Shown: piece by piece, positions 1,361-61,590 of the stretch
How the letters are laid out: every line of letters starts with the position of its first letter
Numbering within the stretch: position 1 is the stretch's first letter
Source of the DNA: an uncultured Tateyamaria sp.
Lineage (GTDB): Bacteria; Pseudomonadota; Alphaproteobacteria; Rhodobacterales; Rhodobacteraceae
Direction: 5' to 3'
Length of the DNA stretch: 64,000 bases
Assembly: GCF_947487805.1 (NCBI RefSeq)
Contig: NZ_CANKXW010000003.1
Location: 1-64,000, forward strand
The notes under the pieces: model-generated
Database searches by the model: none
Told to the model about the DNA's origin: nothing
What the model saw: the letters and a program-made list of their open reading frames with translations, nothing else
Position numbers and translations under genes: made by a program

Positions 1361-1635
1361 GTGCGGCGGGCTTTCTGTTCTGTGGTCCAGTATGCCTAGA
1401 CGATCGGGGCAGGAAACCGAAGCCCCCGTTGCCGCAGCGTCTGCCCCGCGCGGGCTTGAACCCGCAACAAGCCGGGCATAGAAAACTTGTGCAACACCGG
1501 ATTGCCAAAGCAAATTCTACACTAGATTGAACTATAGGCAGGGGCGCAACCATGCTATTCTTGGTGTGCAGAGGCAGGCCGCACCGCATGACGCGAGAAG
1601 TTGAACGTGCAGATTAAAGACAGGTTTTCCGTTCG

Positions 1636-4600
1636 ATGACTGAACCCAAGACTATCGTTGCCATTGGTGCCAGCGCCGGGGGCCTTGGCCCGTGCGAGCT
1701 GTTTTTCGATCACGCACCGGTCGACAAGGGCTTTGCCTATGTGGTGATCCAGCATTTGTCGCCAGACTTTCGGTCGCTTATGGACGAGTTGCTGGCGCGG
1801 CATTCGTCGATGCCGATCCACCGGGTCGAAAACGGGATGGTGATCGAACCGAACACCATCTACCTCAACCGTCCGCGGCAGGTGTTGACGGTGGCGGATG
1901 GCAAATTTGTGGTGGCGCCCGAGGAAACCGAAGACGTCATTCGCCTGCCCATCGACGATTTCTTCAACTCCATTGCGGATGAATACGGCGACGAGGCGGT
2001 GGCCGTGATCCTGTCCGGGTCAGGCAGCGACGGCGTGCGCGGTGCGCGCCAGATCAAATCCCGCGGCGGCCGCGTCTTTGCCCAGACGCCCGAGACCGCG
2101 AAATTCGACAGCATGCCGCGCGCCATCCAGACGGCCAAGCTCGAGGACGGATCCGCCGCCCCCGAGGACCTGCCGGAACTGATCCAGCGCCATATCGCGG
2201 GCGAATTCGGGCTGGGCGGCAATTTCTATCGCGAAATGACCAGTGATCCGGTGTTCGACATCCTGGGCCTGATGCAGGACCGGTTCGGCACCAATTTCAC
2301 CTATTACAAGATCGAAACCGTGGCCCGCCGGCTGAACCGCCGCAAGGACCTGTCGGGCCACGCGGATGTGCGCGACTATTACCGCACACTGCTTCAGGAT
2401 CCGGACGAGCTTGAGACGCTCTATAACGATCTGCTGATCGAAGTGACGGCGTTTTTCCGCGACAAGCCCGCCTTTGACCTGCTGGCCCGCGACGCCATTC
2501 CGGAAATCTGCCGCGACATGTCCCCGCAACGGCAGGTACGTATGTGGGTGCCCGGCTGCGCCAGCGGAGAAGAGGCCTATACTCTCGCCATTCAGGTCGC
2601 CGAATTTGCCCGCGCCAATGACAAGGCGTTCAATCTGAAGATCCTTGCCACGGATATTCACAAGCGGTCGCTGTCAGCGGCCTCTGCCGGGATCTTTTCG
2701 AATGAAACGCTGGCGGCCGTGGACGAGAACCTGATCGAACGGTATTTTGAAAAAACCGGCGACTACCATCAGGTTCGCCAAAACCTGCGCCGCGCCGTTG
2801 TCTTCAGCCCGCATGATCTGCTGCGGGATCCGCCGTTTACCCGGATGGATCTGGTCAGCTGCCGCAACGTGATGATCTACCTCACCGAAGAGGCACAACA
2901 AAAGCTGCTTGCCCTGTTCCATTTCTCGCTGAACAAGGACGGCTACTTGTTCCTCGGGCCCAGCGAGACCACCGGCAAACTTCACCGCGAGTTCACCCAG
3001 ATCTCGCAACGCTGGCGCATCTTCCGCAAGACGCGCGACGTGCGCCTGATGGAATCCACGCGCCTGCTCAACTCGCAACGCCCGCCGATGGACGCGAGCC
3101 TCGCACTGGCCACCACCCGTAAACCAGCCACAAAAGCAGCGCCGATGCGGGTCGCGAATGACCCCAAGTCGACGGCCATATCCGCCGCACTGCACAGACT
3201 TCTGGGCATCTACGGCCCGCCCGGTTTCCTGATCGATCAAAGCGGGCAGCTGACCCACATTTTCGGCGATGCCCGCAAACACCTGCGGTTCAATACCGGC
3301 GGATTCAGCAACGTGCTGACCGAATTGCTGCGCGAAGACCTGAAGCCCTTTGTCGCGCCCATGATCGACCGGTTCAAACACGGGATCATGGTCGAACATG
3401 CGCGCAGCGCCACCCTGACCGAAGAAGACGGTGAAACGATCGAGCTGCGCCTGCTGATGCGCCCCCTGATCGAAGAGGACACCGATGGCGGCCCCTATGC
3501 CATCGTTACGCTTGAGCAAACTGGCCGCGTCGAAACCGACATCGCGCTGATCCCCAGCAGTGACGACGCCGATGACATCGACCGCGATCTGGTCACCTCC
3601 TATGCCTCGCGCGTGTCCGAGCTCGAGCAGATGCTCGGCTCTACCGAGGAAAGCCTGCAAGCCACCATCGAAGAGATGGAGACCTCGAACGAGGAATTGC
3701 AGGCCACCAACGAAGAACTGATGTCCGCCAACGAAGAGCTTCAGTCCACCAACGAGGAACTGCACTCGGTCAACGAGGAACTCTATACCGTCAGTTCCGA
3801 ACACGAGCGCAAGATCGAAGAGCTGAGCGAACTGACTTCCGACATGGACCACCTGCTCAAGAGCACGGCCATCGGCACGATCTTCCTCGATTCTGATTTG
3901 CAGGTGCGCCGTTTTACCCCTGCGGCTGCGCATACGTTCAACCTGATCGCGCAGGATGTCGGACGTCCCTTTGCCCACGTCACCGCACGGTTCTCGACCG
4001 TCGATGTTCAGGACATTGTCCGACAGGTACAGGCCGACGCCAAACCGGTCGACAGCGAGATCGTGTCCAACGACAGATCCTACCTCATGCGCGTGCTGCC
4101 CTACGTGTCCGACGTCCAGCAAAAGCCCGGCGTCGTGATCACGATGATCGACATCGACGCGCTCAGCCGCGCCCGTACCCGCATTGCCGACATGGAACAG
4201 CTGCACGACGAGGTGCTCAAGGATATCGGACAGCTGATCGTGCGCTGGAACAAGGCGGATGGCGAGGTGACCTTTTGCAACGCCACCTTTGCCGAACTGT
4301 GCGGCGGGTCCATCGCCGACCTGCTGGGCACCGATTTCAAAACCCACCTCTCCGCCGAGGTGCACGCCAAGATCAACGACGCGACCAAGGAAATTGCCCC
4401 CGGTGCCTTCCGCCGCGTGATGTTCAAATATACCGACCCGTCGGGCGCAGACCGCTATTTTGACAACATGCTGCGCGCACTGTCGGACAAGTCGGGCAAT
4501 ATCTTCGGCTTCCAGATCACCGGGCGCGACATGACGCCGGATCAGGAATATATCCGCACTCTCGAAGAAGTGCTTGAGGTCGACCGGTCGGACTATCCCG

Positions 4601-6558
4601 CCTCCAAATACGGCTCGCATGTCGCCAAGAACGAATTGGCGCGGGTCGAGAAACTCTTTGAGATCGTGCAGTCCTATCTGGGCGCAACCCAGCTGCTGGT
4701 CACCATCGGCGGCCATGACGAAACGCCCAAACCGCTGGAACTGCCCGCGGTCAGCCAACCGGGCGTGGTGCCGCAAAGCGCCTATAACAGCCTCGAAAAA
4801 ATCGTCTCCGACGACGCGGCAAGCTCTGAAACCGTGGGCATCCGCAAGGTCAACCTGGCGGGCCGCAATCAACACAAGACGCTGCTGAACGATCTGGGCG
4901 CATCCCGCGCTATCGTCGGCCCGATCATCTCGCGGAATGCGGTGATCGGACGGGTGGCTCTGGCCGTGTCCTCGCACCACCCGGACCGCGATTTCACCGA
5001 ACTGGAACTGGCGCTCGCACGGATCACGATCCGCTGGGCCGGCTATATCTGGGACCGCAGCCGCACCATCGAAGCCATCGAAAGCACCAGCGCCCAGCTG
5101 ATGCTGACCATCGATCACCTGCCTGCGCGGGTGTGGTTCAAGGACGACCAGAACAAGATCATCTGGCTGAATTCAACGGCGGCCGCCTCGATGGGCATGT
5201 CTGTCGAAAACGCCACGGGCATCAACACCTACGACCAGTTCCCCGAAATGGCCGGAAAATACCACAAGGACGACCTTGCGGTGATCAACTCGGGCCGTCC
5301 CAAGCTGGGGATCATCGAAAAGTTCACGCCCAAACACGGCCCGCACGGGTGGTCCAAGACCGACAAGATCCCTTACGTCGATCCGCGCACCGGCGCCCGC
5401 AACCTGCTGGTCATCTCGACCGACATCACGATGCTCAAGAATCAGGAGGCCGAAATCGAGCGGTTGAACAAGTCGCTCAATCAACAGCGGGGCCTTTATC
5501 GCGAGATCTACCAACACACGCCCGCGATGATGCTGACTACGGATGCCGAAAATCGTATCGAGGACGCCAACGACCTGCTGGCCAAAACGGGCGGTTATAC
5601 CCGCGAGGAACTGATTGGCCGCGCCATGCGCGACGTGTTCCTCGAACGCAAGCGCGACACCGACCTGCCGCAGGTGGACGAACGCGACAGCGGCGAGCCG
5701 ATGCGCCTGCTGTGCAGCAATGGCACCTTGTTGGACGTGGAACTGGCAGGCATCGACGACACGCTGGCCGACGGCGAATTCCGCCGCCTCTGGGTCGTGC
5801 ACGACGTGTCGGCGCGCAACCTCGCCCTCGCCGCGCTTGAGGCCAAGAATTCCGAGCTGGAGCACCTCAATGACGGGTTGGCGCAATTCGCCTATGCCGC
5901 GTCGCATGACCTTCAGGAACCGCTGCGCAAGATCCGCCAATACGGCGACCTGCTGACCGAAGATTACAGCGACAATCTGGACAAGGACGGGCAATTCTAC
6001 GTGGATGTGATGACGTCCTCGGCCGAACGGATGAGCAGCCTGGTCAAGAACCTGCTGCAATTCTCCAGCGCCTCGCAGGGGGATTTCACACCGCAGGAAA
6101 TCCCGCTGGGCAAGCTGGTGGACAAGGTCGTCGACGACTACAAACAGGTGATCGAGGAAACTGGCGCGACCATCACCTCGGACACCCTGCCATCAGTGCG
6201 CTGCGACGAGAACCTTGTGCAGATCGTGTTCTCAAACATCATCTCGAACGCCCTGAAATACCGCGCGCCACAACGCGCGCCGGAAATCAAGGTGGGGGTC
6301 GAACAATCGGATGACCGCATCATCCTCAGCTTTACCGACAACGGCATCGGGTTCGACAAAAGCGAGGCGGAACGCATCTTTGACCCCTTCGTCAGGCTGG
6401 TCTCGAAATCCGAGGCGCAAGGCACCGGCATTGGCCTCGCGATCTGCCGTACAATCTGCGAACGACACAACTGGACGTTGACCGCTTCTAGTACGAAGGG
6501 TAGTCACACACGCATTGAAATCAGAATACCGATCGAAAGCAGCGAGTGGGCAAAATAG
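1636..6558 (+). CDS. CheB-CheR-PAS-histidine kinase fusion protein
   Basis: A 1640-residue soluble signalling protein. Residues 1-190 are a CheB methylesterase domain with its triad S13 (GASAGG), H40 and D132. Residues about 205-470 are a CheR methyltransferase domain with the SAM loop PGCASGEEA at 306-314. A long coiled coil at about 650-730 is made of repeated (S/T)NEEL heptads. PAS-like and GAF-like segments fill about 740-1400. A HisKA domain has H1424 in AASHDLQEPLRK, and the HATPase ends with DNGIGF and GTGIGLAI. No membrane segment and no receiver domain are present, although canonical CheB carries a receiver. Such fusions are known, but their substrates usually are not. The next gene overlaps its end by 13 bases. 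Confidence 0.93.
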   Translation: MTEPKTIVAIGASAGGLGPCELFFDHAPVDKGFAYVVIQHLSPDFRSLMDELLARHSSMPIHRVENGMVIEPNTIYLNRPRQVLTVADGKFVVAPEETEDVIRLPIDDFFNSIADEYGDEAVAVILSGSGSDGVRGARQIKSRGGRVFAQTPETAKFDSMPRAIQTAKLEDGSAAPEDLPELIQRHIAGEFGLGGNFYREMTSDPVFDILGLMQDRFGTNFTYYKIETVARRLNRRKDLSGHADVRDYYRTLLQDPDELETLYNDLLIEVTAFFRDKPAFDLLARDAIPEICRDMSPQRQVRMWVPGCASGEEAYTLAIQVAEFARANDKAFNLKILATDIHKRSLSAASAGIFSNETLAAVDENLIERYFEKTGDYHQVRQNLRRAVVFSPHDLLRDPPFTRMDLVSCRNVMIYLTEEAQQKLLALFHFSLNKDGYLFLGPSETTGKLHREFTQISQRWRIFRKTRDVRLMESTRLLNSQRPPMDASLALATTRKPATKAAPMRVANDPKSTAISAALHRLLGIYGPPGFLIDQSGQLTHIFGDARKHLRFNTGGFSNVLTELLREDLKPFVAPMIDRFKHGIMVEHARSATLTEEDGETIELRLLMRPLIEEDTDGGPYAIVTLEQTGRVETDIALIPSSDDADDIDRDLVTSYASRVSELEQMLGSTEESLQATIEEMETSNEELQATNEELMSANEELQSTNEELHSVNEELYTVSSEHERKIEELSELTSDMDHLLKSTAIGTIFLDSDLQVRRFTPAAAHTFNLIAQDVGRPFAHVTARFSTVDVQDIVRQVQADAKPVDSEIVSNDRSYLMRVLPYVSDVQQKPGVVITMIDIDALSRARTRIADMEQLHDEVLKDIGQLIVRWNKADGEVTFCNATFAELCGGSIADLLGTDFKTHLSAEVHAKINDATKEIAPGAFRRVMFKYTDPSGADRYFDNMLRALSDKSGNIFGFQITGRDMTPDQEYIRTLEEVLEVDRSDYPASKYGSHVAKNELARVEKLFEIVQSYLGATQLLVTIGGHDETPKPLELPAVSQPGVVPQSAYNSLEKIVSDDAASSETVGIRKVNLAGRNQHKTLLNDLGASRAIVGPIISRNAVIGRVALAVSSHHPDRDFTELELALARITIRWAGYIWDRSRTIEAIESTSAQLMLTIDHLPARVWFKDDQNKIIWLNSTAAASMGMSVENATGINTYDQFPEMAGKYHKDDLAVINSGRPKLGIIEKFTPKHGPHGWSKTDKIPYVDPRTGARNLLVISTDITMLKNQEAEIERLNKSLNQQRGLYREIYQHTPAMMLTTDAENRIEDANDLLAKTGGYTREELIGRAMRDVFLERKRDTDLPQVDERDSGEPMRLLCSNGTLLDVELAGIDDTLADGEFRRLWVVHDVSARNLALAALEAKNSELEHLNDGLAQFAYAASHDLQEPLRKIRQYGDLLTEDYSDNLDKDGQFYVDVMTSSAERMSSLVKNLLQFSSASQGDFTPQEIPLGKLVDKVVDDYKQVIEETGATITSDTLPSVRCDENLVQIVFSNIISNALKYRAPQRAPEIKVGVEQSDDRIILSFTDNGIGFDKSEAERIFDPFVRLVSKSEAQGTGIGLAICRTICERHNWTLTASSTKGSHTRIEIRIPIESSEWAK

Positions 6559-6983
6559 CAACCGGACGCCATGTCATCATCGTGGATGACGACGACGAAG
6601 ACGTTTTTGCCATCCGGCGGGCGTTCTCCAAATATGATGACACGATCCAGCTCAAGCACCTGTCCGACGGGGCCAAGGCCGTTGACCATCTGCTCGCCAT
6701 TCAGGAATTTAGGGATCTACCGGACCTCGTTCTGCTCGACATCAACATGCCGCGCGTGAACGGGTTTGAAACCCTTCAGGCCCTGCGCAGCTCCAACCTG
6801 ACCCGGCATCTGCCAATCATCATTCTATCGACGTCGGATTCGGTGCGCGAAATTCGGCAAGCCTATGCCTCGGGCGCGAATGCGCACATGATAAAACCCA
6901 GTTCGATGTCGCGGTTACAGGAATTTGTGCGTGCCATTGCGCTGTTTTGGCTGGATACGGCGGCCTTGCCCAACCAGAACTAG
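6546..6983 (+). CDS. Single-domain response regulator (Rcp1-like)
   Basis: A 145-residue CheY-like receiver without output domain. It has the acidic cluster VDDDDED, the phospho-acceptor aspartate in LVLLDINMP, the Thr/Ser switch in ILSTSDS and the invariant Lys in HMIKPSS. GTG at 6546 is the likely start, because no in-frame ATG precedes the first beta strand. This gives a 13-base overlap with the kinase gene, so translational coupling is likely and this is probably its phosphorylation partner. The family includes Rcp1, the receiver partner of cyanobacterial phytochrome. It meets the opposite-strand regulator in a shared CTAG at 6980-6983. Confidence 0.9.
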   Translation: MGKIATGRHVIIVDDDDEDVFAIRRAFSKYDDTIQLKHLSDGAKAVDHLLAIQEFRDLPDLVLLDINMPRVNGFETLQALRSSNLTRHLPIIILSTSDSVREIRQAYASGANAHMIKPSSMSRLQEFVRAIALFWLDTAALPNQN

Positions 6984-7336
6984 GATCGGCGCTCAAAGAT
7001 CTCGGCCAGCATGTCGGCCGTCACGTCGTCCTTCTCGAAAAACAGCAAATCACCATCCTGTCCTTGCACCTGCGGGTTCAGGACCGAAGACACGACAACG
7101 ATCTGCACCGCCACGCCAAGGCTGCGCAAGGTCGCGACGGACTGCCGGTGATCGGTCTCGGGGGGGATGCGCGAATCCAACAGGACGACGCCGGGTCGGT
7201 CCTGTCTGATCGCCTCCTCCGCATCCTCTACAGACAGAAAACAGCGCAGCGTGAACCGCCCGTCGCGGTCCAGCAACCGTGACACGAGGTGGTGTTCCAG
7301 TGGATCGTCGTCGATAAAGATCACCGAATACGGCAT
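6980..7336 (-). CDS. Single-domain response regulator
   Basis: A 118-residue receiver domain with IDDD at its start, the acceptor Asp in VVLLDSRIP, the switch Ser in VVVSSV and a Lys in FFEKDDV. It has no output domain. The ATG at 7336 begins the first beta strand (MPYSVIFIDDD). It lies 22 bases after the histidine-kinase-like gene and is last in a minus-strand run with it, another receiver and the phytochrome. It is divergent enough from its neighbours not to be a recent duplicate. Partner unknown; the adjacent kinase-like protein is the obvious candidate. Confidence 0.85.
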   Translation of the reverse strand: MPYSVIFIDDDPLEHHLVSRLLDRDGRFTLRCFLSVEDAEEAIRQDRPGVVLLDSRIPPETDHRQSVATLRSLGVAVQIVVVSSVLNPQVQGQDGDLLFFEKDDVTADMLAEIFERRS

Positions 7337-7358
7337 CAAACCCTGCATCTGCGTTGCG

Positions 7359-8006
7359 TCAAGCAACGGACTTGGGGGCTTTTGCAGCCATTTCCAGTGT
7401 GATGCCAAATTTATTGTGCCCGGCATGCGACGCCCGGGCGCTTCCGCCCACGCGCTCCATGATATGCGCCACAAGCGCGAGGCCCAGGCCCGCATGCGAC
7501 GCCGGATCGCGCGACCGAAATGGCGTGAAATCGGCGGCCGTTGCCTGAACGTCAGCCACAGTGGTGACCCGTAAGAGCGATCCATCGATGCGGATGGTGA
7601 AATTACCCCTGTCCGCCCCATGATCCGCCGCGTTTTCCGTCAGCGCATCCAGCGCCAGATCAAGAAGATGCGCGTCCGTCCATGCCGCACCCTCCCCGTC
7701 GACAAAGCATTCGAACCGCCCAAGGCGACCACCTGCCCGTGTCACCGCCGCACGCGCCGCCGGCCGCAGGTCGATCAGTCGGCACTCGGTCCGGTGGCTC
7801 GCCAGATCCGTGACCCTGCGCGTCATCCGCACCAGCGCAAACAGCTTTCTGGACTTGTCCTTGATCTGCTGGCTCAGCTTGCGCACTCGGTCCGGATCGT
7901 CCGCGTCCTCGGATACCATGTCAGACAGAAAGGCAATGTTCCGGCACAAGGCAGTCGTGTCATGCGCAAGTCGCGCAGCGATATCGCCGATACTGGCCGC
8001 CTGCAC
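7359..8006 (-). CDS. Sensorless histidine-kinase-like protein, possible ChpT-type phosphotransferase
   Basis: A 215-residue cytosolic protein with a dimerisation helix carrying the likely phospho-His in ARLAHDTTAL (about residue 15), then a CA-like domain. The N box (ALTENAADHG) and a G2-like box (AGLGLALVAHIME) are visible. The G1 box DxGxG, needed to hold ATP, is absent; the corresponding stretch reads VADVQATAAD. There is no sensor domain. Size and defects match ChpT-like histidine phosphotransferases that evolved from kinases, so it may pass phosphate between the neighbouring kinases and receivers. An inactive or unusual kinase is the alternative. The GTG start at 8006 directly abuts the preceding receiver gene. 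Confidence 0.75.
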   Translation of the reverse strand: MQAASIGDIAARLAHDTTALCRNIAFLSDMVSEDADDPDRVRKLSQQIKDKSRKLFALVRMTRRVTDLASHRTECRLIDLRPAARAAVTRAGGRLGRFECFVDGEGAAWTDAHLLDLALDALTENAADHGADRGNFTIRIDGSLLRVTTVADVQATAADFTPFRSRDPASHAGLGLALVAHIMERVGGSARASHAGHNKFGITLEMAAKAPKSVA

Positions 8007-8420
8007 TTAGCTGTCGACCGTATGCAGCACGAGGGGCTTTTCGACCAATTGCGCCGCAACCGATTCAACATCGAACCGTTTCTCGATGAACCAGTCCGCG
8101 CCGTTCTTGAGACAAGTATGAATATGAACGACCGCATCCATCCCGCTCAGCACCCCGATCAGCGGCGGGTTCTCCGGATAGAGCGCGCGTATCGCATTGA
8201 TGGTCGATAGACCGCTCAGCTGCCAGTCGACACCTTCGACATCCGGCATAAAGAGATCAACACAGATCAGGTCGACCCCCTCGCCGTTCTTCTTGAGGTA
8301 GTCCAAAGCGTCAACCACATTGTCAAAGGCGATCACGTCCGCCTTGCCAGACAGGGCCGCACCCAATGCACTCAAGTAGTCGACATCGTCATCGACCAAG
8401 ACAATTCGTCTGTTCATCAT
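8007..8420 (-). CDS. Single-domain response regulator
   Basis: A 137-residue receiver with VDDDVDY at the start, acceptor Asp in LICVDLFMPD, switch Ser in GVLSGMD and Lys in WFIEKRF, and no output domain. Its stop codon abuts the GTG of the kinase-like gene at 8006, so the two are surely co-transcribed. It lies 95 bases beyond the phytochrome stop. The loop after the acceptor Asp is longer than usual (VEGVDWQLSGLS), which could affect partner choice. It probably exchanges phosphate with the adjacent kinase-like protein or the phytochrome. Confidence 0.88.
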   Translation of the reverse strand: MMNRRIVLVDDDVDYLSALGAALSGKADVIAFDNVVDALDYLKKNGEGVDLICVDLFMPDVEGVDWQLSGLSTINAIRALYPENPPLIGVLSGMDAVVHIHTCLKNGADWFIEKRFDVESVAAQLVEKPLVLHTVDS

Positions 8421-8515
8421 TTAATCATTCCAAGCTTACAACCTAAAGGTGCCACAGAATTCTCAAATGTCAAATTGTATAACTCTTTGATCAGAGTACC
8501 GTACGCAGACTCAAC

Positions 8516-11047
8516 CTAAGGTTTGACGCGCAACAGGTCTGTCAGCAAAACACGTAGAATCGAGGTTTCGATCGGCTTTGCGACCCATAGCGCGTCCAGC
8601 CCCTCGACCATATCCAGCGCGTCGCTGCCATAGCCGGTGGCGAATACAAAAGGCGTTCCGACGCTTTGCAACCTGGCCGCCACTGGTGTGCAGATCTCTC
8701 CGTGCAGATTGACGTCCAGAAGGCAGAAATCATAGGTTTCCGCATCGATGCACGCCAAAGCATCCGCAATGCTATTTGCTGAATCTATTTGAGAAAATCC
8801 CAATTCCTGCAATATCTTCCGCGATTGCATCGCAACAATGAAATTGTCCTCCACCAACAGCGCACGACCGCCAAATGTCGCTGCGGGTTGTTCGGAGTAT
8901 TCGGGCTTTGCACCGCGGCTGCTCTGGCGGGCTTGCGGGACATCTCCGTCAACCACCACGTCCGCCGGGATCTGCAACCTCACCTCGACGCCACCTGGCA
9001 GGAATTGCAAGTCGGACACGCCGTTGAACTCGTAGCCAATGCCGTCAGCAACGATCGTGGTGCCAAATCCGGTGTGCGTCGGCGCAACCACCGGTGGTCC
9101 TCTGCTTTCAACCCAAAGCAGTTCAAGCACGCTCTCGTTAAGCCGCCAATTTACCGTAACGCGCCCTTTCGGCACCGACAGAGCCCCGTATTTTGCCGCG
9201 TTCGAGGTCAGCTCATGCATGATCAGCGCAATAACCGACGCCGCGTCCGGACGCAGCACGACCTGTGGGCCATCGATTGTCACACGCCCCAGTTCCCCCT
9301 CGTAAGGACGCAGTTCCAGCAGGATCAAATCCGCCAGCATCGCACCCTGCATATCGGCGCGCGTCAACAGATTATGGGCCCCCGCCAACGCGACGATCCG
9401 CCGTTCCAGCGCCGCGGCATAGGCTTCAATCGATGTGCTGTCCTGTCGCGACTGCGATGCCAGCGATTGCACCAGCGCGAGGATGTTGTGCACCCGGTGG
9501 TTCAGCTCCCGCACCATCAACCCCATGCGATGGCGGTTGTCGCTCAGCCGTTTCTGCGTGGCGAGAACTTGGGACAGCGCATCACAAAAGGCCTGCGCCA
9601 GTTCGATCTCGGCTGCCGTCCACTCCGATGACTGGTCTCGGTTTTGCTCCACATAGCTGTCAAATGACGCGCGCGGGTCAAGCCTCGGGCGGCCATCATC
9701 GACCGTCACGGTCTTTTCGGGCGCTCCGGCCCAACGCACGATCTGATCAATCCTGTCCCTGAAGAAAACGACCGATGCATCCTCCATCTCCGGCACGCGC
9801 GCTGCCAGGGCCCCGCCCGTTTGCCCCCAATCGACGTCGGGCATCCGTGCGCCGAGGTCATTGACAGCTGTCAGCGGCGCGTCTCCGGCCTCTTGCAAAA
9901 GAGAACGGCACGCATCCACAGGCGGCGTCTCCCCATATGTCAGCACTTGCCCGCCCAGCACCATCGCGACCCCGTCACAGGCGATCAACGCGGCCACCTC
10001 ATCCCGTACCGCATCCCAATAGGCCCCTGCGGCCAGTTCGCTGTCATCCAGAACGACCAGCCGATTGGCAATGCCGAAACATTGGTTCCGCGCCTGTTGC
10101 CGCCGGCTCTCCAATGCGTGCTGGATCCGCAAGCTGATCAGCTTGCCCGCCAGTTCGGCCCCGACCAAAGTGTTCGGGTCAACCGTCTTGGCCGTCATAT
10201 GGTGCGCGGCAAACAAGCCCCACAACGCCCCGTCCACCACAACCGGCACGGTCATGGTGGCCCCGACCCCCATATTCTCGAGGTATTGCCGATGCACTGC
10301 ATCCTTGCCACGCAGCACCGCAAGGGACATGTCCAGCGGCTCGGCACCGGGCAAGCCGACGACGCCAGCATCCGGGCCCATGATATCCGAAAGCACCCGG
10401 ATCGGGGTCCGGGCATAAAGCGTGCGCGCAATCCGGGGGATATCGCTTTCCGGGAACCTGAGACCCAGATACGAGGCCACATCCGGGTGCCGTGCCTCGG
10501 CCACCACCATGCCCGATCCATCGGGCAGGAACTGGTAAAACTTGACCCGGTCAAACCCGCATAAGGCCCGCAGCCGTTCGGTCGCTCTGTCGAAGAACGA
10601 TGGCAAGTCGTTGAAATCCAGCGGACTTGTCAAAAAGCTCTGTGCCTGATGCAGCGCGCCGCCGCGCTCCTGGCCATGTGCGGGCTCTGGGATCATCTCG
10701 ATCACGGCCCGCGTCCCGGCCCTGTACAACGACACCGCATAGGTGACATCACCGATCGTCTTGGGCGACTGCACCTCGCGCTGTCTCTCGATCGTGTCAT
10801 GGCTCAGCGCATTGCGAAACCCGTGCAACTCTTCGGCAGAAAACACCGTGTCCGCAGCACCACCCACCAGTGCGTCCGGCACCGCGCCAAGGATCGGTGC
10901 GCAGTTGTCGCTGATGCACTCAATTGTCTCGCAGAACGCATCTAGTGCCACCAGCAGCCCAAAGCCCTGAATGCGACCCGGAATGTGGATCGGATCCTCG
11001 CTGCACCGGTCCAGTGCCTGCCGTAGCTCGTCTGCGGTAAGTGTCAT
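8516..11047 (-). CDS. bphP: Bacteriophytochrome hybrid HWE histidine kinase with C-terminal receiver
   Basis: An 843-residue red/far-red photoreceptor kinase. The PAS domain holds C15 in CSEDPIHIPG, the biliverdin-attachment cysteine of bacteriophytochromes. The GAF domain has PESDIP (canonical PASDIP) and the conserved HRQYLENMGV and LWGLFAAHH stretches. The PHY tongue has the PRASF motif. The kinase is of the HWE family: H517 in LNHRVHNI, HELTSNAAKYG and the W-x-E in LLWVES. A receiver closes the protein with VEDN, the acceptor Asp in LLDVNLHG, and a Thr and Lys in the usual places. No haem oxygenase gene for making biliverdin is nearby. Neighbouring free receivers are likely partners. Confidence 0.95.
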   Translation of the reverse strand: MTLTADELRQALDRCSEDPIHIPGRIQGFGLLVALDAFCETIECISDNCAPILGAVPDALVGGAADTVFSAEELHGFRNALSHDTIERQREVQSPKTIGDVTYAVSLYRAGTRAVIEMIPEPAHGQERGGALHQAQSFLTSPLDFNDLPSFFDRATERLRALCGFDRVKFYQFLPDGSGMVVAEARHPDVASYLGLRFPESDIPRIARTLYARTPIRVLSDIMGPDAGVVGLPGAEPLDMSLAVLRGKDAVHRQYLENMGVGATMTVPVVVDGALWGLFAAHHMTAKTVDPNTLVGAELAGKLISLRIQHALESRRQQARNQCFGIANRLVVLDDSELAAGAYWDAVRDEVAALIACDGVAMVLGGQVLTYGETPPVDACRSLLQEAGDAPLTAVNDLGARMPDVDWGQTGGALAARVPEMEDASVVFFRDRIDQIVRWAGAPEKTVTVDDGRPRLDPRASFDSYVEQNRDQSSEWTAAEIELAQAFCDALSQVLATQKRLSDNRHRMGLMVRELNHRVHNILALVQSLASQSRQDSTSIEAYAAALERRIVALAGAHNLLTRADMQGAMLADLILLELRPYEGELGRVTIDGPQVVLRPDAASVIALIMHELTSNAAKYGALSVPKGRVTVNWRLNESVLELLWVESRGPPVVAPTHTGFGTTIVADGIGYEFNGVSDLQFLPGGVEVRLQIPADVVVDGDVPQARQSSRGAKPEYSEQPAATFGGRALLVEDNFIVAMQSRKILQELGFSQIDSANSIADALACIDAETYDFCLLDVNLHGEICTPVAARLQSVGTPFVFATGYGSDALDMVEGLDALWVAKPIETSILRVLLTDLLRVKP

Positions 11048-11068
11048 AATGGCTTTCCGCTCGGGTCT

Positions 11069-11118
11069 TTTGTCATGTCAGATTGCACGGACACCGCGCC
11101 CGTGTGAACCATGACAAA
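11069..11118 (-). other. Nested inverted repeat between receiver and phytochrome genes
   Basis: Outer arms TTTGTCATG (11069-11077) and CATGACAAA (11110-11118) are perfect complements. Inner arms CACGG (11086-11090) and CCGTG (11100-11104) are also perfect. They fill the 74-base gap between the response regulator at 11122 and the bphP start at 11047. The RNA could fold into a two-tier hairpin that separates expression of the two genes, or the outer arms could be an operator. Confidence 0.4.
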
Positions 11119-11121
11119 CCC

Positions 11122-11538
11122 CTAGCCGTTTTCCACCTTGGGTCGCAACAGCTCCAACACGGCAGTGACCAGTTCATCAGCGGTAAACGGTTTGCGCATC
11201 ACGCGGTCGGCACCCATGTTTTCGACCGTCAGCAGCGGGTCGATGCCGGAATATTTGCTCGGCATGAAGCCACTGACCGCAATCGTCTTGGGTTGTTGCT
11301 CGCGCGGCAGTTGCGTACGCATCTTGCCCAACAGCAAAATCCCCCCGTCTTTCAGGGGTTGGCCGCTGTCGTCTCGGATGAAAATGTCTGCAATCACCGC
11401 ATCCACGTGATCATGCTGGATCTGCGCCAACCCTTCGGTCGCGCCATGCACGTGCACCGTGTCGATCCCGGCCTGTTCAAACTTGTCGCGCCACGACTGA
11501 ACGAGGTCAAAATCGTCTTCGAGAATAAGAACCTTCAT
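11122..11538 (-). CDS. Single-domain response regulator
   Basis: A 138-residue receiver with LEDDFD, acceptor Asp in AVIADIFIRD, switch Ser in IAVSGFM and Lys in RVMRKPF. A longer than usual insert follows the acceptor Asp. It has no output domain. It is the first gene of the minus-strand run that continues with the phytochrome 74 bases downstream, and is the likeliest free receiver for it by position. The promoter should lie in 11539-11615, where I see no convincing -35/-10 pair. Confidence 0.88.
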   Translation of the reverse strand: MKVLILEDDFDLVQSWRDKFEQAGIDTVHVHGATEGLAQIQHDHVDAVIADIFIRDDSGQPLKDGGILLLGKMRTQLPREQQPKTIAVSGFMPSKYSGIDPLLTVENMGADRVMRKPFTADELVTAVLELLRPKVENG

Positions 11539-11615
11539 GGCGGCGTCTTTGTGTAGCGGTCAACTCTGTCTTGGCAACCCTAGCGCGAAGCGTTCTGACG
11601 TCGACACATTTTCTG

Positions 11616-13094
11616 TCACCGCATGACAAACGGATTGGCCATCGGCGCGTCGGACGTGTTGATCCACGTGGTCTGCGTCCGGGTGTAATCGAGGATCGCC
11701 TCCATGCCCGCCTCGCGCCCGTATCCCGACTGGTTGAACCCACCAAACGGCGCGATGGGCGAAATCGCGCGATAGGTGTTGACCCAGCAAATGCCCGACC
11801 GGATGCGCCCCGACACCCGGTGCGCCCGCGCGAGGTTCTGGGTGAACACGCCAGACCCAAGGCCGAACTCCGTGTCATTGGCCAGCGCAATCGCCTCGTC
11901 CTCGGTGTCAAAGGGCAACAGCGTCATCACCGGGCCGAACATCTCTGTCTTCAGCGTCTGCGTCGCCGCATCCGTGCACGTCACCAGCGTCGGTGCCATG
12001 TAGTTGCCCGCGCGCGGCAGCGCTGCGCCGCCAAACCGGATCTGCGCGCCCTGTTCGGTTGCGCGCGCCAACGTCGCCGCAATCGTCTGCATCTGCCCTT
12101 CGGTACAGAGCGGCCCCACATGCGTGCCCGCCTCCAGCGGATCGCCCACGACGATGCCCTTGGATTTCTCCGCAATCAGGTCCGCCAGCGGCTCAAGGAT
12201 CGACCTATGCACCAGCCCCCGCGACCCCGCGACACAGCTTTGACCCGAAGCGCCGAAATTGCCCGCGATCAGACCATTGGCCGCCCCTTCCAGATCCGCA
12301 TCCTCGAACACGATTATCGGCGACTTCCCCCCCAGCTCCAACGTGGTCACCGCGAAATTCTCGGCCGAATTGCGCACCACATGCCGCGCCGTGCCCGGCC
12401 CGCCCGTGAATGCGATGCGGTCCACCCGCGGATGGCGCGTCAGCGGAATGGCGCAGTTTTCCGCGTCCCCCGTCACGACGGACACAACGCCCGGCGGGAA
12501 CCCCGCCTCCTCGACCAACCGCGCGAATTCCAGCATGGGCACCGGGGCCGCCTCCGACGCCTTGAGGACAACGGTACAGCCCGCGGCCAGCGCAGGCCCC
12601 AGCTTGGTCGCGGTCAGGAACATCTGCGCATTCCACGGCACGATCGCCGCCACCACGCCAATGGGCGCGCGGCGGGTGAACACATGCATATCCGGCTTGT
12701 CGATGGGCAGAACCGCGCCCTCGACCTTATCGGCCAGCCCCGCATAGTACCGATAGTAATCGCCAACATAAGCCGTCTGCGCCGACGTCTCGGCAAGCAG
12801 CTTGCCGCTGTCCGTCGTCTCCAGCTCACCCAGATGACGCGCGTTCTCCTCGATCAGCGCGGCCAAGCGGTACAAGAGCTTGCCCCGCGCCGTCTGCGAC
12901 ATGTCCCGCCACGCCGGATCCTCCAGCGCCCGCGCCGCTGCGCGCACCGCCCGGTCGATGTCGTCCGGGCCGGCACAGGCAAAACTGGCCCAGGCCGCGC
13001 CACTGGCCGGATTCACCGTCTCCATGACCTGCCCGGCGGACCCTTCGGTCCACGCGCCGTCGATATACAGCTGATAATGCGGCAAATGTCCCAT
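11616..13094 (-). CDS. NAD(P)-dependent aldehyde dehydrogenase
   Basis: A 492-residue ALDH-superfamily enzyme that oxidises an aldehyde to the acid. Catalytic C287 sits in FGASGQSCVAG and general base E253 in TLELGGKSP; PWNAQ at about 153-157 is the nucleotide-binding signature. The ATG at 13094 is preceded by GAGGGG. An in-frame GTG at 13106 overlapping the previous stop has no better site. It is the last gene of the operon formed with the flavin monooxygenase, reductase, hydrolase and DUF1185 genes, so its aldehyde is probably a product of that pathway. Betaine-aldehyde or hydroxymuconic-semialdehyde dehydrogenase-like enzymes are the nearest type. Confidence 0.9.
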   Translation of the reverse strand: MGHLPHYQLYIDGAWTEGSAGQVMETVNPASGAAWASFACAGPDDIDRAVRAAARALEDPAWRDMSQTARGKLLYRLAALIEENARHLGELETTDSGKLLAETSAQTAYVGDYYRYYAGLADKVEGAVLPIDKPDMHVFTRRAPIGVVAAIVPWNAQMFLTATKLGPALAAGCTVVLKASEAAPVPMLEFARLVEEAGFPPGVVSVVTGDAENCAIPLTRHPRVDRIAFTGGPGTARHVVRNSAENFAVTTLELGGKSPIIVFEDADLEGAANGLIAGNFGASGQSCVAGSRGLVHRSILEPLADLIAEKSKGIVVGDPLEAGTHVGPLCTEGQMQTIAATLARATEQGAQIRFGGAALPRAGNYMAPTLVTCTDAATQTLKTEMFGPVMTLLPFDTEDEAIALANDTEFGLGSGVFTQNLARAHRVSGRIRSGICWVNTYRAISPIAPFGGFNQSGYGREAGMEAILDYTRTQTTWINTSDAPMANPFVMR

Positions 13095-59950: not shown

Positions 59951-60087
59951 TCCCTTGGATCTGTTCCGGGATCGCCCTCCGTCAGCGCGTTGCGCCCACG
60001 GGGGCCATCGTGGTTTGGGCCATTGGGTTTCACGCCGCCCGCACTTAGGTGAAGGCATAATGTCAACGGTCGAAAGGATGCAGGCCC

Positions 60088-61590
60088 ATGTTTGAAAATC
60101 TCTCCGAACGCCTCTCCGGTGTGTTCGACCGGCTGACCAAGCAGGGCGCGCTGAGCGAAGAGGACGTCAAGACTGCCCTGCGCGAGGTGCGTGTGGCCCT
60201 GCTGGAGGCGGACGTGTCCCTGCCCGTGGCGCGGGATTTCGTCAAGGCGGTGCAGGATCAGGCGACCGGTCAGGCGGTGACCAAATCCGTCACTCCCGGC
60301 CAGCAGGTTGTCAAGATCGTGCACGATGCACTTGTTGACACGCTCAAGGGCGAGGGCGAGCCCGGTGCGCTGAAGATCGACAGCCCCCCTGCCCCGATCC
60401 TGATGGTGGGTTTGCAGGGCGGTGGTAAGACCACGACAACCGCCAAGCTCGCCAAGCGCCTGACTGAGCGCGACGGCAAACGCGTGCTGATGGCCTCGCT
60501 TGACGTGAACCGTCCGGCAGCGATGGAACAGCTCGCGATCCTCGGCAACCAGATCGGTGTCGACACCCTGCCCATCGTCAAGGGCGAAGACCCCGTCGCA
60601 ATCGCCAAGCGCGCCAAGACCCAAGCCAGCATGGGCGGCTATGACGTCTATATGCTCGACACCGCCGGGCGCCTGTCCATCGACGAAGAGCTGATGACGC
60701 AGGTCGAACAGGTCCGCGACGTCGCCACGCCCCGCGAAACGATCCTCGTGGTCGATGGCCTGACCGGTCAGGACGCGGTGAACACGGCGCAGAACTTTGA
60801 CGACCGTATCGGCATTTCGGGCGTGGTGCTGACCCGGATGGACGGCGACGGGCGCGGTGGTGCCGCCCTGTCCATGCGTGCCGTCACCGGCAAGCCGATC
60901 AAGTTCGTGGGCCTGGGCGAGAAAATGGACGCGCTCGAAACCTTCGAACCCGAGCGGATCGCGGGCCGCATCCTCGGCATGGGCGATATCGTCAGCCTTG
61001 TCGAAAAGGCGCAGGAGACCATCGAGGCGGAACAGGCCGAGCGCATGATGAAGCGCATGGCCAAGGGTCAGTTCAACATGAACGACCTGCGCATGCAGCT
61101 GGAACAGATGATCAAGATGGGCGGCATGGAGGGCATGATGGGCATGATGCCCGGCATGGGTAAACTGTCGAAACAGGTGGCGGATGCGGGCTTTGACGAC
61201 AAGGTCCTGAAACAGCAGATCGCCATGATCCAGTCCATGACCAAGAAAGAGCGCGCCGCCCCCCAGATCCTGCAAGCCAGCCGCAAGAAACGCATCGCGC
61301 GCGGCTCGGGCATGCAGGTCAGCGACCTCAACAAACTGCTCAAGATGCACCGCCAGATGTCGGACATGATGAAAAAGCTCGGCAAGGGCAAAGGCGGCAT
61401 GATGAAACAGGCGATGAAAGCCATGATGGGCAAAGGCGGCGGCATGCCCGACATGGGCGGCATGGATCAGGCGCAACTGGAAGCGGCGGCCAAGCAGCTG
61501 GGCGGCAAGATGCCCGGCGGTTTGCCGGGTCTGGGTGGCGGCATGCCCCTGCCCCCCGGCCTTTCGGGGTTCGGCAAGAAAAAGAAATGA
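60088..61590 (+). CDS. ffh: Signal recognition particle protein Ffh (SRP54)
   Basis: A 500-residue GTPase that binds signal peptides at the ribosome and brings them to FtsY. N domain at 1-95, the G1 loop GLQGGGKTTT at 108-117, DTAGR near 190, TRMDGDGRGGAALS and GLGEKMDALE in the G domain, then a methionine-rich M domain from about 330 with the RNA-binding GSGMQVSDLNKLL. The tail is long and Gly/Met-rich, as in other alphaproteobacteria. No 4.5S RNA gene was noticed nearby. The NIPSNAP gene overlaps its stop. Confidence 0.98.
   Translation: MFENLSERLSGVFDRLTKQGALSEEDVKTALREVRVALLEADVSLPVARDFVKAVQDQATGQAVTKSVTPGQQVVKIVHDALVDTLKGEGEPGALKIDSPPAPILMVGLQGGGKTTTTAKLAKRLTERDGKRVLMASLDVNRPAAMEQLAILGNQIGVDTLPIVKGEDPVAIAKRAKTQASMGGYDVYMLDTAGRLSIDEELMTQVEQVRDVATPRETILVVDGLTGQDAVNTAQNFDDRIGISGVVLTRMDGDGRGGAALSMRAVTGKPIKFVGLGEKMDALETFEPERIAGRILGMGDIVSLVEKAQETIEAEQAERMMKRMAKGQFNMNDLRMQLEQMIKMGGMEGMMGMMPGMGKLSKQVADAGFDDKVLKQQIAMIQSMTKKERAAPQILQASRKKRIARGSGMQVSDLNKLLKMHRQMSDMMKKLGKGKGGMMKQAMKAMMGKGGGMPDMGGMDQAQLEAAAKQLGGKMPGGLPGLGGGMPLPPGLSGFGKKKK

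Follow-up and report, generated by a model that had tools for sequence, protein, structure and literature searches.

A candidate red/far-red phosphorelay island in a Tateyamaria genome, with a kinase-like protein lacking the G1 box as putative phosphotransferase

Introduction

Spo0B provides a precedent for a phosphotransferase with the kinase fold. In Caulobacter, ChpT has a kinase-like fold and is described as showing no autophosphorylation with ATP (PMC3433190), and PhyK and LovK are reported to accept phosphate from the FATGUY receiver MrrA even when their G1 or G2 box has been mutated (PMC5964349). PhyT of Sphingomonas melonis is presented as a histidine phosphotransferase that leads from the single-domain receiver SdrG to PhyR (PMC5898713). 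Among the phytochromes, those of the Agp2 type carry a C-terminally fused response regulator behind the kinase region (PMC10813442), and the Lhf locus of Rhodopseudomonas palustris (rpa3014-3018) encodes LhfA, BphP2, BphP3, LhfD, and LhfE and is described as a putative phosphorelay, in which the free receiver LhfD accepts phosphate from the phytochromes and the receiver-containing LhfA is a putative regulator of transcription (PMC6879726). This paper describes a signalling island at positions 1636-11538 of a stretch of 64,000 nucleotides from an uncultured Tateyamaria sp. (contig NZ_CANKXW010000003.1, positions 1 to 64,000 of the forward strand; this whole stretch is referred to as the window). 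The island encodes a bacteriophytochrome (BphP), a CheB-CheR-PAS-kinase fusion (CheBR-kinase), four free receivers (REC1 to REC4), and a kinase-like protein (HKL).

We propose that the island could be a red/far-red phosphorelay of two linked units, in which HKL would be a kinase descendant turned phosphotransferase; this proposal is tentative, being quite possible and short of probable. The source genome of the window is designated G000, a second genome of the same genus G255, and a genome of another genus G054, and single loci are designated by L and a number.

Results

Gene content and layout of the island

Seven signalling genes were found at 1636-11538 using the open reading frame (ORF) list and Pfam; an earlier note, made from the sequence alone, had counted eight, a miscount, as its own list also sums to seven. 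The CheBR-kinase ORF starts exactly at position 1636 and that of REC1 exactly at position 11538. The arrangement is convergent, with CheBR-kinase and REC4 on the plus strand (unit A), REC1-BphP-REC2-HKL-REC3 on the minus strand (unit B), and an overlap of 4 bp between the tails of REC3 and REC4. A single operon of all seven genes is ruled out by their location on two strands. The Pfam families listed for the seven proteins (25 of 32 for the 1640-residue CheBR-kinase) include no helix-turn-helix, GGDEF, EAL, or other output domain, in agreement with the earlier description of an island without obvious output. That description also held that the receivers differ from one another and that the kinase-like protein has no G1 box; the five receivers, including the one fused to BphP, indeed share 16-25% identity pairwise, and the G255 ortholog of HKL likewise lacks the box. 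Among the NCBIfam matches listed for the island proteins, TIGR00229 (general PAS domain) was the sole one over the curated cut-off. Within 1400-11800, two sigma-70-like sites (3.0 expected) and seven terminator-like sites (9.8 expected) were found.

HKL combines a conserved phosphoacceptor helix with an altered ATP site

HKL (7359-8006, minus strand, 215 residues) directly follows REC2 (8007-8420, minus strand, 137 residues; Response_reg 2.8e-12), such that the stop codon of REC2 is immediately followed by the HKL GTG, which is in frame, and a single stop separates the two frames in both species. The CA-like domain of HKL has no DxGxG motif (G1 box) in either species. Between the N-box Asn and the G2 box it has 48 residues in both species, compared with 55-71 in 27 measured kinases, which derive from 30 kinase loci of G000 and G255 of which 28 gave a value, L163 being excluded as a false match in a membrane stretch; for L144, L159, and L160, in which an upstream Asn had been picked, the values (65, 57, and 57, respectively) were read from their stretches. 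DxGxG is present in 26 of these 27 kinases, the exception being L164 with DNGTP. In both species the 48-residue stretch falls outside the range of the 27 kinases; with the G1 box missing and the N and G2 boxes kept, the ATP site of HKL may be decaying. HKL matched HATPase_c marginally (9.2e-6; 26.5 bits versus a cut-off of 26.4), as the weakest of 34 such matches in G000, and the list of matches at E<=1e-3 does not contain the G255 copy; HisKA gave no Pfam match in HKL at E<=1. Distant matches of HKL were read by eye for 8 of the 48 non-self loci, and all looked like ordinary kinases or fragments, with DxGxG in six.

In contrast to this part of the protein, the stretch RLAHDTTALCRNIA around His15, which lies in the DHp hairpin, is identical in both species. 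DHp helix 1 is 73% identical between G000 and G255 and the CA part 36%, which is a gap of 0.37 as compared with 0-0.25 in ten control ortholog pairs. HKL is more divergent overall than these control pairs, which represent 10 of 13 reciprocal pairs (L156, L160, and L163 were dropped, having no H box or no G1 box by pattern), include the CheBR-kinase of the island itself, and contain one pair, L139/L138 (45%), that is possibly not orthologous. We tentatively read HKL as a phosphotransferase in function, with selection acting on the phosphoacceptor helix and a decaying ATP site.

Structure prediction with AlphaFold2 from a two-row alignment (pLDDT, the predicted local distance difference test, 82.0; pTM, the predicted template modelling score, 0.80) gave a helical hairpin (residues 6-33 and 38-70) followed by a domain of the CA-like type, and no sensor domain was seen. 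Foldseek placed this model with class I kinases, including HK853 (1.2e-9), a YycG-type kinase, and DivL (4q20; 1.2e-8), and a sequence search of solved structures returned a histidine kinase at the top (1.4e-6) and DivL at 8.4e-4. The missing G1 box and the fast divergence of HKL, together with the recovery of DivL by both searches, would also suit a pseudokinase or DivL-like allosteric partner, which would bind a receiver and influence another kinase but carry no phosphate itself, or a gene in decay. The ratio of nonsynonymous to synonymous substitution rates (dN/dS) of HKL, approximately 0.34, is the highest among the eight genes with a value and yet below 1, a rough figure given a nearly saturated dS (for REC2 it has no defined value), and no internal stops were flagged in HKL in either species. 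These two findings speak against this alternative, as does a His15 helix that is nearly unchanged while the rest of HKL diverges, and a pseudokinase or decaying gene is considered quite unlikely.

Several observations weigh against a phosphotransferase role of HKL. The N-box Asn, Asp152, and a GLGL G2 box are retained in both species, by which nucleotide binding is possible, and odd G1 boxes also occur in ordinary kinases (degenerate in L071, DGPP in L015, and DNGTP in L164). Kinases ordinarily have a conserved DHp helix 1, and some control pairs, such as L147/L143, have a higher ratio of CA change to helix 1 change than HKL (approximately 2.4). The conservation arguments consist of one comparison between two species, with only two HKL sequences. 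Active kinases rank first in the Foldseek search, with no ChpT-titled entry among the 50 matches listed. HKL has no HPTransfase (PF10090) match in Pfam at E<=1, for which reason it is not filed under the ChpT family and membership of that family was ruled out. An AlphaFold2 model of REC2 with HKL was of low confidence (pLDDT 63.9, pTM 0.56) and displayed no docking, and it was not used.

Part of these observations would fit a HKL that is still an active kinase despite its odd G1 box and is probably under the control of REC2, comparable to a split version of the receiver-controlled kinases LvrB or LhfE, LvrB reportedly being such a kinase. The kept N box, G2 box, and Asp152 and the existence of ordinary kinases with odd G1 boxes (L071 and L164) favor this explanation, as do the common reading frame of REC2 and HKL, interrupted by a single stop in each species, and the description of LhfE as a protein that joins a receiver to a histidine kinase in a phytochrome locus (PMC6879726). 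The absence of DxGxG, a lid region shorter than in all 27 measured kinases, and the marginal HATPase_c score argue the other way. Moreover, REC2 read through into HKL recovered only itself and one match to the HKL part in 385 genomes of the class (E<=1e-8), and thus no fused REC-HKL relative. An active kinase is regarded as improbable.

As natural material for comparison with HKL, L071 (genome G540) is the 482-residue frame of an ordinary kinase in which VVSGGAVL occupies the G1 region in place of DxGxG. L164 is the kinase at G255:C11:13390-13710, where DNGTP replaces DxGxG.

The phytochrome and the receivers

BphP (8516-11047, minus strand, 843 residues) matched PAS_2, GAF, PHY, and HWE_HK over the Pfam cut-offs, and Response_reg was also matched, corresponding to a C-terminal receiver behind the PAS-GAF-PHY-HWE kinase architecture. 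Cys15, the SDIP stretch, His252, the HH pair, and the PRASF stretch are retained, the kinase has His517 and an intact N box (Asn616), and the fused receiver contains Asp778, Thr804, and Lys824; Cys15, His517, and Asn616 are conserved in G255. We take Cys15 to be the biliverdin-binding cysteine, and the remaining residues His517, Asn616, Asp778, Thr804, and Lys824 presumably have their usual roles. In both species the fused receiver carries PFVFATGYG, which fits the FATGUY motif PFxFATG(G/Y) as defined in PMC5964349. Receivers of the FATGUY class stand alone, and the motif is found here in the BphP receiver, which is fused; inspection by eye showed it in none of the four free receivers.

REC1 (11122-11538, minus strand, 138 residues; Response_reg 3.4e-09) is the first gene on the minus strand, and REC3 (6980-7348, minus strand, 122 residues, with an alternative start at 7336; Response_reg 3.1e-06) is the last. 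The acidic pocket, the phosphoaccepting Asp, and the conserved Lys are kept, by eye, in all five receivers. In REC3, a Ser was recognized by eye in addition to these residues, and its Response_reg score of 27.8 bits is just below the Pfam cut-off of 30.2.

Free receivers beside other phytochromes are uncommon, being found at 2 of the 37 non-island phytochrome loci examined (L036 and L041), within flanks of up to 1.5 kb. These receivers adjoin other phytochromes of the family at 3849-4340 of L041 and 4751-5188 of L036, and the L041 receiver is 31% identical to REC1. The genome that contains the island encodes a second HWE phytochrome with a fused receiver (L090, G000:C8:195000-207000, at 4611-7196). 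It is preceded and overlapped by an ORF of 196 residues (L090 4024-4614) that, by eye, may be a heme oxygenase and yet has no Pfam match at E<=0.01. A pair of quinone-oxidoreductase-like and MscS-like genes flanks the island in G255 (L089 17565-19876), and its homologs, identified by eye, adjoin the second phytochrome in G000 (L090 1238-3549).

CheBR-kinase and REC4 form a separate unit

The CheBR-kinase (1636-6558, plus strand, 1640 residues) matched CheB (1.6e-46), CheR (5e-52), several PAS models, HisKA, and HATPase_c in Pfam. Active-site-like motifs of CheB and CheR as well as kinase motifs were located in it, and their residues are presumed by us to have the corresponding catalytic roles. 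Its 3' end is overlapped by 13 bp by REC4 (6546-6983, plus strand, 145 residues; Response_reg 2.2e-20), which has a GTG start. Between G000 and G255, the CheBR-kinase is 83% identical overall, and the CheB (95%) and CheR (91%) parts are its most conserved regions.

In G054, a CheBR-kinase with 42% identity over residues 7-1284 has an overlapping receiver gene behind it whose product is 41% identical to REC4, and no phytochrome gene was found within the 6.7 kb examined near this pair. Unit A is considered a module in its own right because of this occurrence. The single branched relay envisaged in the earlier note is therefore better described as two units, although its genes are kept together, as shown below.

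Another CheB-CheR-PAS protein of G000 (L127, G000:C11:17000-30500, at 5613-12118; 1105 residues) has no kinase domain matched, and its gene is flanked by those of two histidine kinases and of a free receiver.

Conservation and distribution of the island

All seven genes recur in G255 in unchanged order, and REC3 and REC4 again overlap by 4 bp; as in G000, the neighbors of the block are the genes of an LLM-type oxidoreductase and an aldehyde dehydrogenase. Because genes, order, and overlap recur in a second species, the arrangement is considered to be more than chance. Comparison of gene content across genomes had been named in the earlier note as a test of its proposal, and it found a syntenic block whose genes stay together. 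The identities between G000 and G255 are similar for CheBR-kinase (83%), REC4 (86%), and the flanking genes (86% and 89%), and amount to 70% for REC2, 61% for BphP, 59% for REC1, 46% for HKL, and 41% for REC3 in unit B. HKL and REC3 are thus, together, the fastest-diverging proteins of the island, which speaks for the proposed relay.

These values bear on the alternative that the island consists of two unrelated signalling units that are neighbors by chance and share no relay. The far higher conservation of unit A (83% and 86%) than of unit B (41-70%) agrees with this alternative, as does the G054 pair. Conversely, the overlapping convergent ends are kept, and the CheBR-kinase and a close BphP occur in the same 2 of 20 congeneric genomes. 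Two unrelated units constitute a possibility of real weight, without being the expected outcome.

The scan of all 20 congeneric genomes covered BphP and CheBR-kinase, with HKL and the free receivers left out. It detected CheBR-kinase at E<=1e-200 in two genomes (G000 and G255) and relatives of BphP in eight; apart from G000, a close one (62%) occurred only in G255, and those in the other six genomes were 32-34% identical. Among 248 genomes of the family, G000 included, BphP relatives were found in 33 at E<=1e-60 (best other identity 38%) and HKL matches in 36 at E<=1e-3 (best other 30% over the full length, 2.1e-9), by which the island was ruled out as a general feature of the family. The aldehyde dehydrogenase gene is present in 12 of the 20 congeneric genomes, and in the ten of these other than G000 and G255 no island receiver, HKL, BphP, or CheBR-kinase was found over the reporting limits beside it (on one side, and over only 5 kb in L122).

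The two-row alignment of HKL recovered one relative from a collection of 84,980 species, in the second Tateyamaria-like genome, and the single-sequence query recovered none from genome contigs, both scans being seeded by short exact peptide patterns that distant relatives would escape. Plasmid records gave no match to HKL and two distant receiver matches to REC2, and REC2 found only itself in 149 genomes of the family at E<=1e-8. Judged from these sequence comparisons, the block appears to be an accessory island, shared by the Tateyamaria-like genomes of two marine bacteria.

Candidate outputs encoded elsewhere in the genome

The earlier note expected the signal to leave the island through proteins encoded elsewhere or through CheB/CheR-like methylation, and candidates for both routes are present in the genome. 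G000 encodes PhyR (345.6 bits versus a curated cut-off of 240), beside which an EcfG-type sigma factor, a HisKA_2 kinase, and, by eye, a NepR-like ORF of 57 residues were found. It also encodes methyl-accepting receptors: of eight MCPsignal matches, seven pass the cut-off and three score more than 140 bits. Judged from gene content, PhyR-NepR-EcfG is a plausible candidate output of the island.

BphP might even feed the general stress response directly, as an HWE kinase that phosphorylates PhyR, with the free receivers and HKL tuning or draining phosphate; this is compatible with HKL being a phosphotransferase. The combination of an HWE kinase with a FATGUY-type receiver in BphP fits such an input, as do the PhyR, EcfG-type, HisKA_2, and NepR-like genes, and a LOV-HWE kinase of Rubellimicrobium thermophilum is reported to phosphorylate PhyR (PMC12148442). 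However, the island and PhyR have no sequence link, and in the window the EcfG promoter pattern occurs about as often as chance predicts, with two matches, one of them inside the CheBR-kinase gene, versus 1.89 expected. Furthermore, the second HWE phytochrome with a receiver (L090) could fill this role. Direct input from BphP is rather doubtful.

Rfam gave no match inside the island. Elsewhere in the window, at 59961-60012, a match to the ffh small RNA (RF01793, 65.5 bits) is located just upstream of an ORF of 500 residues (60088-61590).

Discussion

The proposed phosphorelay would start with BphP, a biliverdin-type phytochrome that may control its HWE kinase, which in turn would phosphorylate its own FATGUY-type receiver and/or the free receivers. 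HKL would no longer use ATP, and its His15 would accept the phosphoryl group from REC2 or from the BphP receiver and pass it on to another receiver, with REC3 as the favored partner, in a role similar to that of ChpT, Spo0B, or PhyT/PhyK. Unit A would act as a kinase/receiver pair, and its methylesterase and methyltransferase domains may modify chemoreceptors whose genes lie outside the island. The signal could leave the island via free receivers that bind other proteins, or via PhyR-NepR-EcfG. The phosphotransfer steps, their partners, the output, and the cross-talk between units A and B are all inferred.

A further-reaching version holds that HKL could be an independently evolved, kinase-derived phosphotransferase, apart from ChpT, Spo0B, and PhyT/PhyK, in a self-contained light-driven relay that would end on free receivers and receptor methylation rather than on a DNA-binding protein; we deem this version somewhat unlikely. 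If HKL is indeed a phosphotransferase, it would represent a kinase caught midway in losing its use of ATP, with the N and G2 boxes kept and the G1 box gone, and becoming a relay element. Few bacteria have known targets of phytochrome control, and the island offers a compact set for mapping phosphate flow by light in vitro, comprising a light-switchable kinase, five receivers, a candidate phosphotransferase, and a CheB-CheR kinase.

A limited search of the literature on phytochromes with PhyR or the general stress response, on Tateyamaria, and on single-domain receivers with a phosphotransferase found no such system in the portions of the sources that were available, and others may be in print. 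Among the described systems, the Lhf locus is the nearest known layout. Its phytochromes are likewise accompanied by a free receiver and by a receiver-kinase protein, LhfE, which is comparable to REC2 plus HKL (PMC6879726). In contrast, Lhf ends in LhfA and is described as adjoining genes that it controls, whereas no output domain was found in the island and no DNA-binding receiver protein of the LhfA kind is among the Pfam families listed. The island differs further in that its BphP is of the HWE type with a fused receiver, the receiver and the kinase-like protein are separate genes, and the G1 box is lost.

With regard to HKL, the MrrA-PhyK/LovK system resembles the island in its HWE kinases, its receiver with a FATGUY motif, and its use of kinase-fold proteins for phosphotransfer, which is the role proposed for HKL. 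Nevertheless, PhyK and LovK are HisKA2 proteins whose G1 and G2 boxes were mutated by the authors, whereas the G1 box of HKL was lost naturally and HKL resembles the HisKA type; moreover, MrrA is a free receiver and the island motif lies in the receiver fused to BphP (PMC5964349). PhyT carries phosphate from receiver to receiver, as is proposed for HKL, but is described as a membrane-bound protein of the phyR locus that ends on PhyR, while HKL has 215 residues, no other domain, and a place in a phytochrome locus (PMC5898713). With ChpT, HKL shares the two-domain DHp plus CA-like fold, the absence of a sensor, an altered ATP site, and, as proposed, a histidine that shuttles phosphate. It differs from ChpT in having no HPTransfase match, in keeping the N and G2 boxes, and in a lid that is short instead of being replaced by extra helix turns (PMC3433190). 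Agp2-type phytochromes have the response regulator fused behind the kinase region as in the island BphP, although the available portion of that source describes no cluster of free receivers and a G1-less kinase around them (PMC10813442). Taken together, the island is a new arrangement of known parts and a variant of the phytochrome two-component loci.

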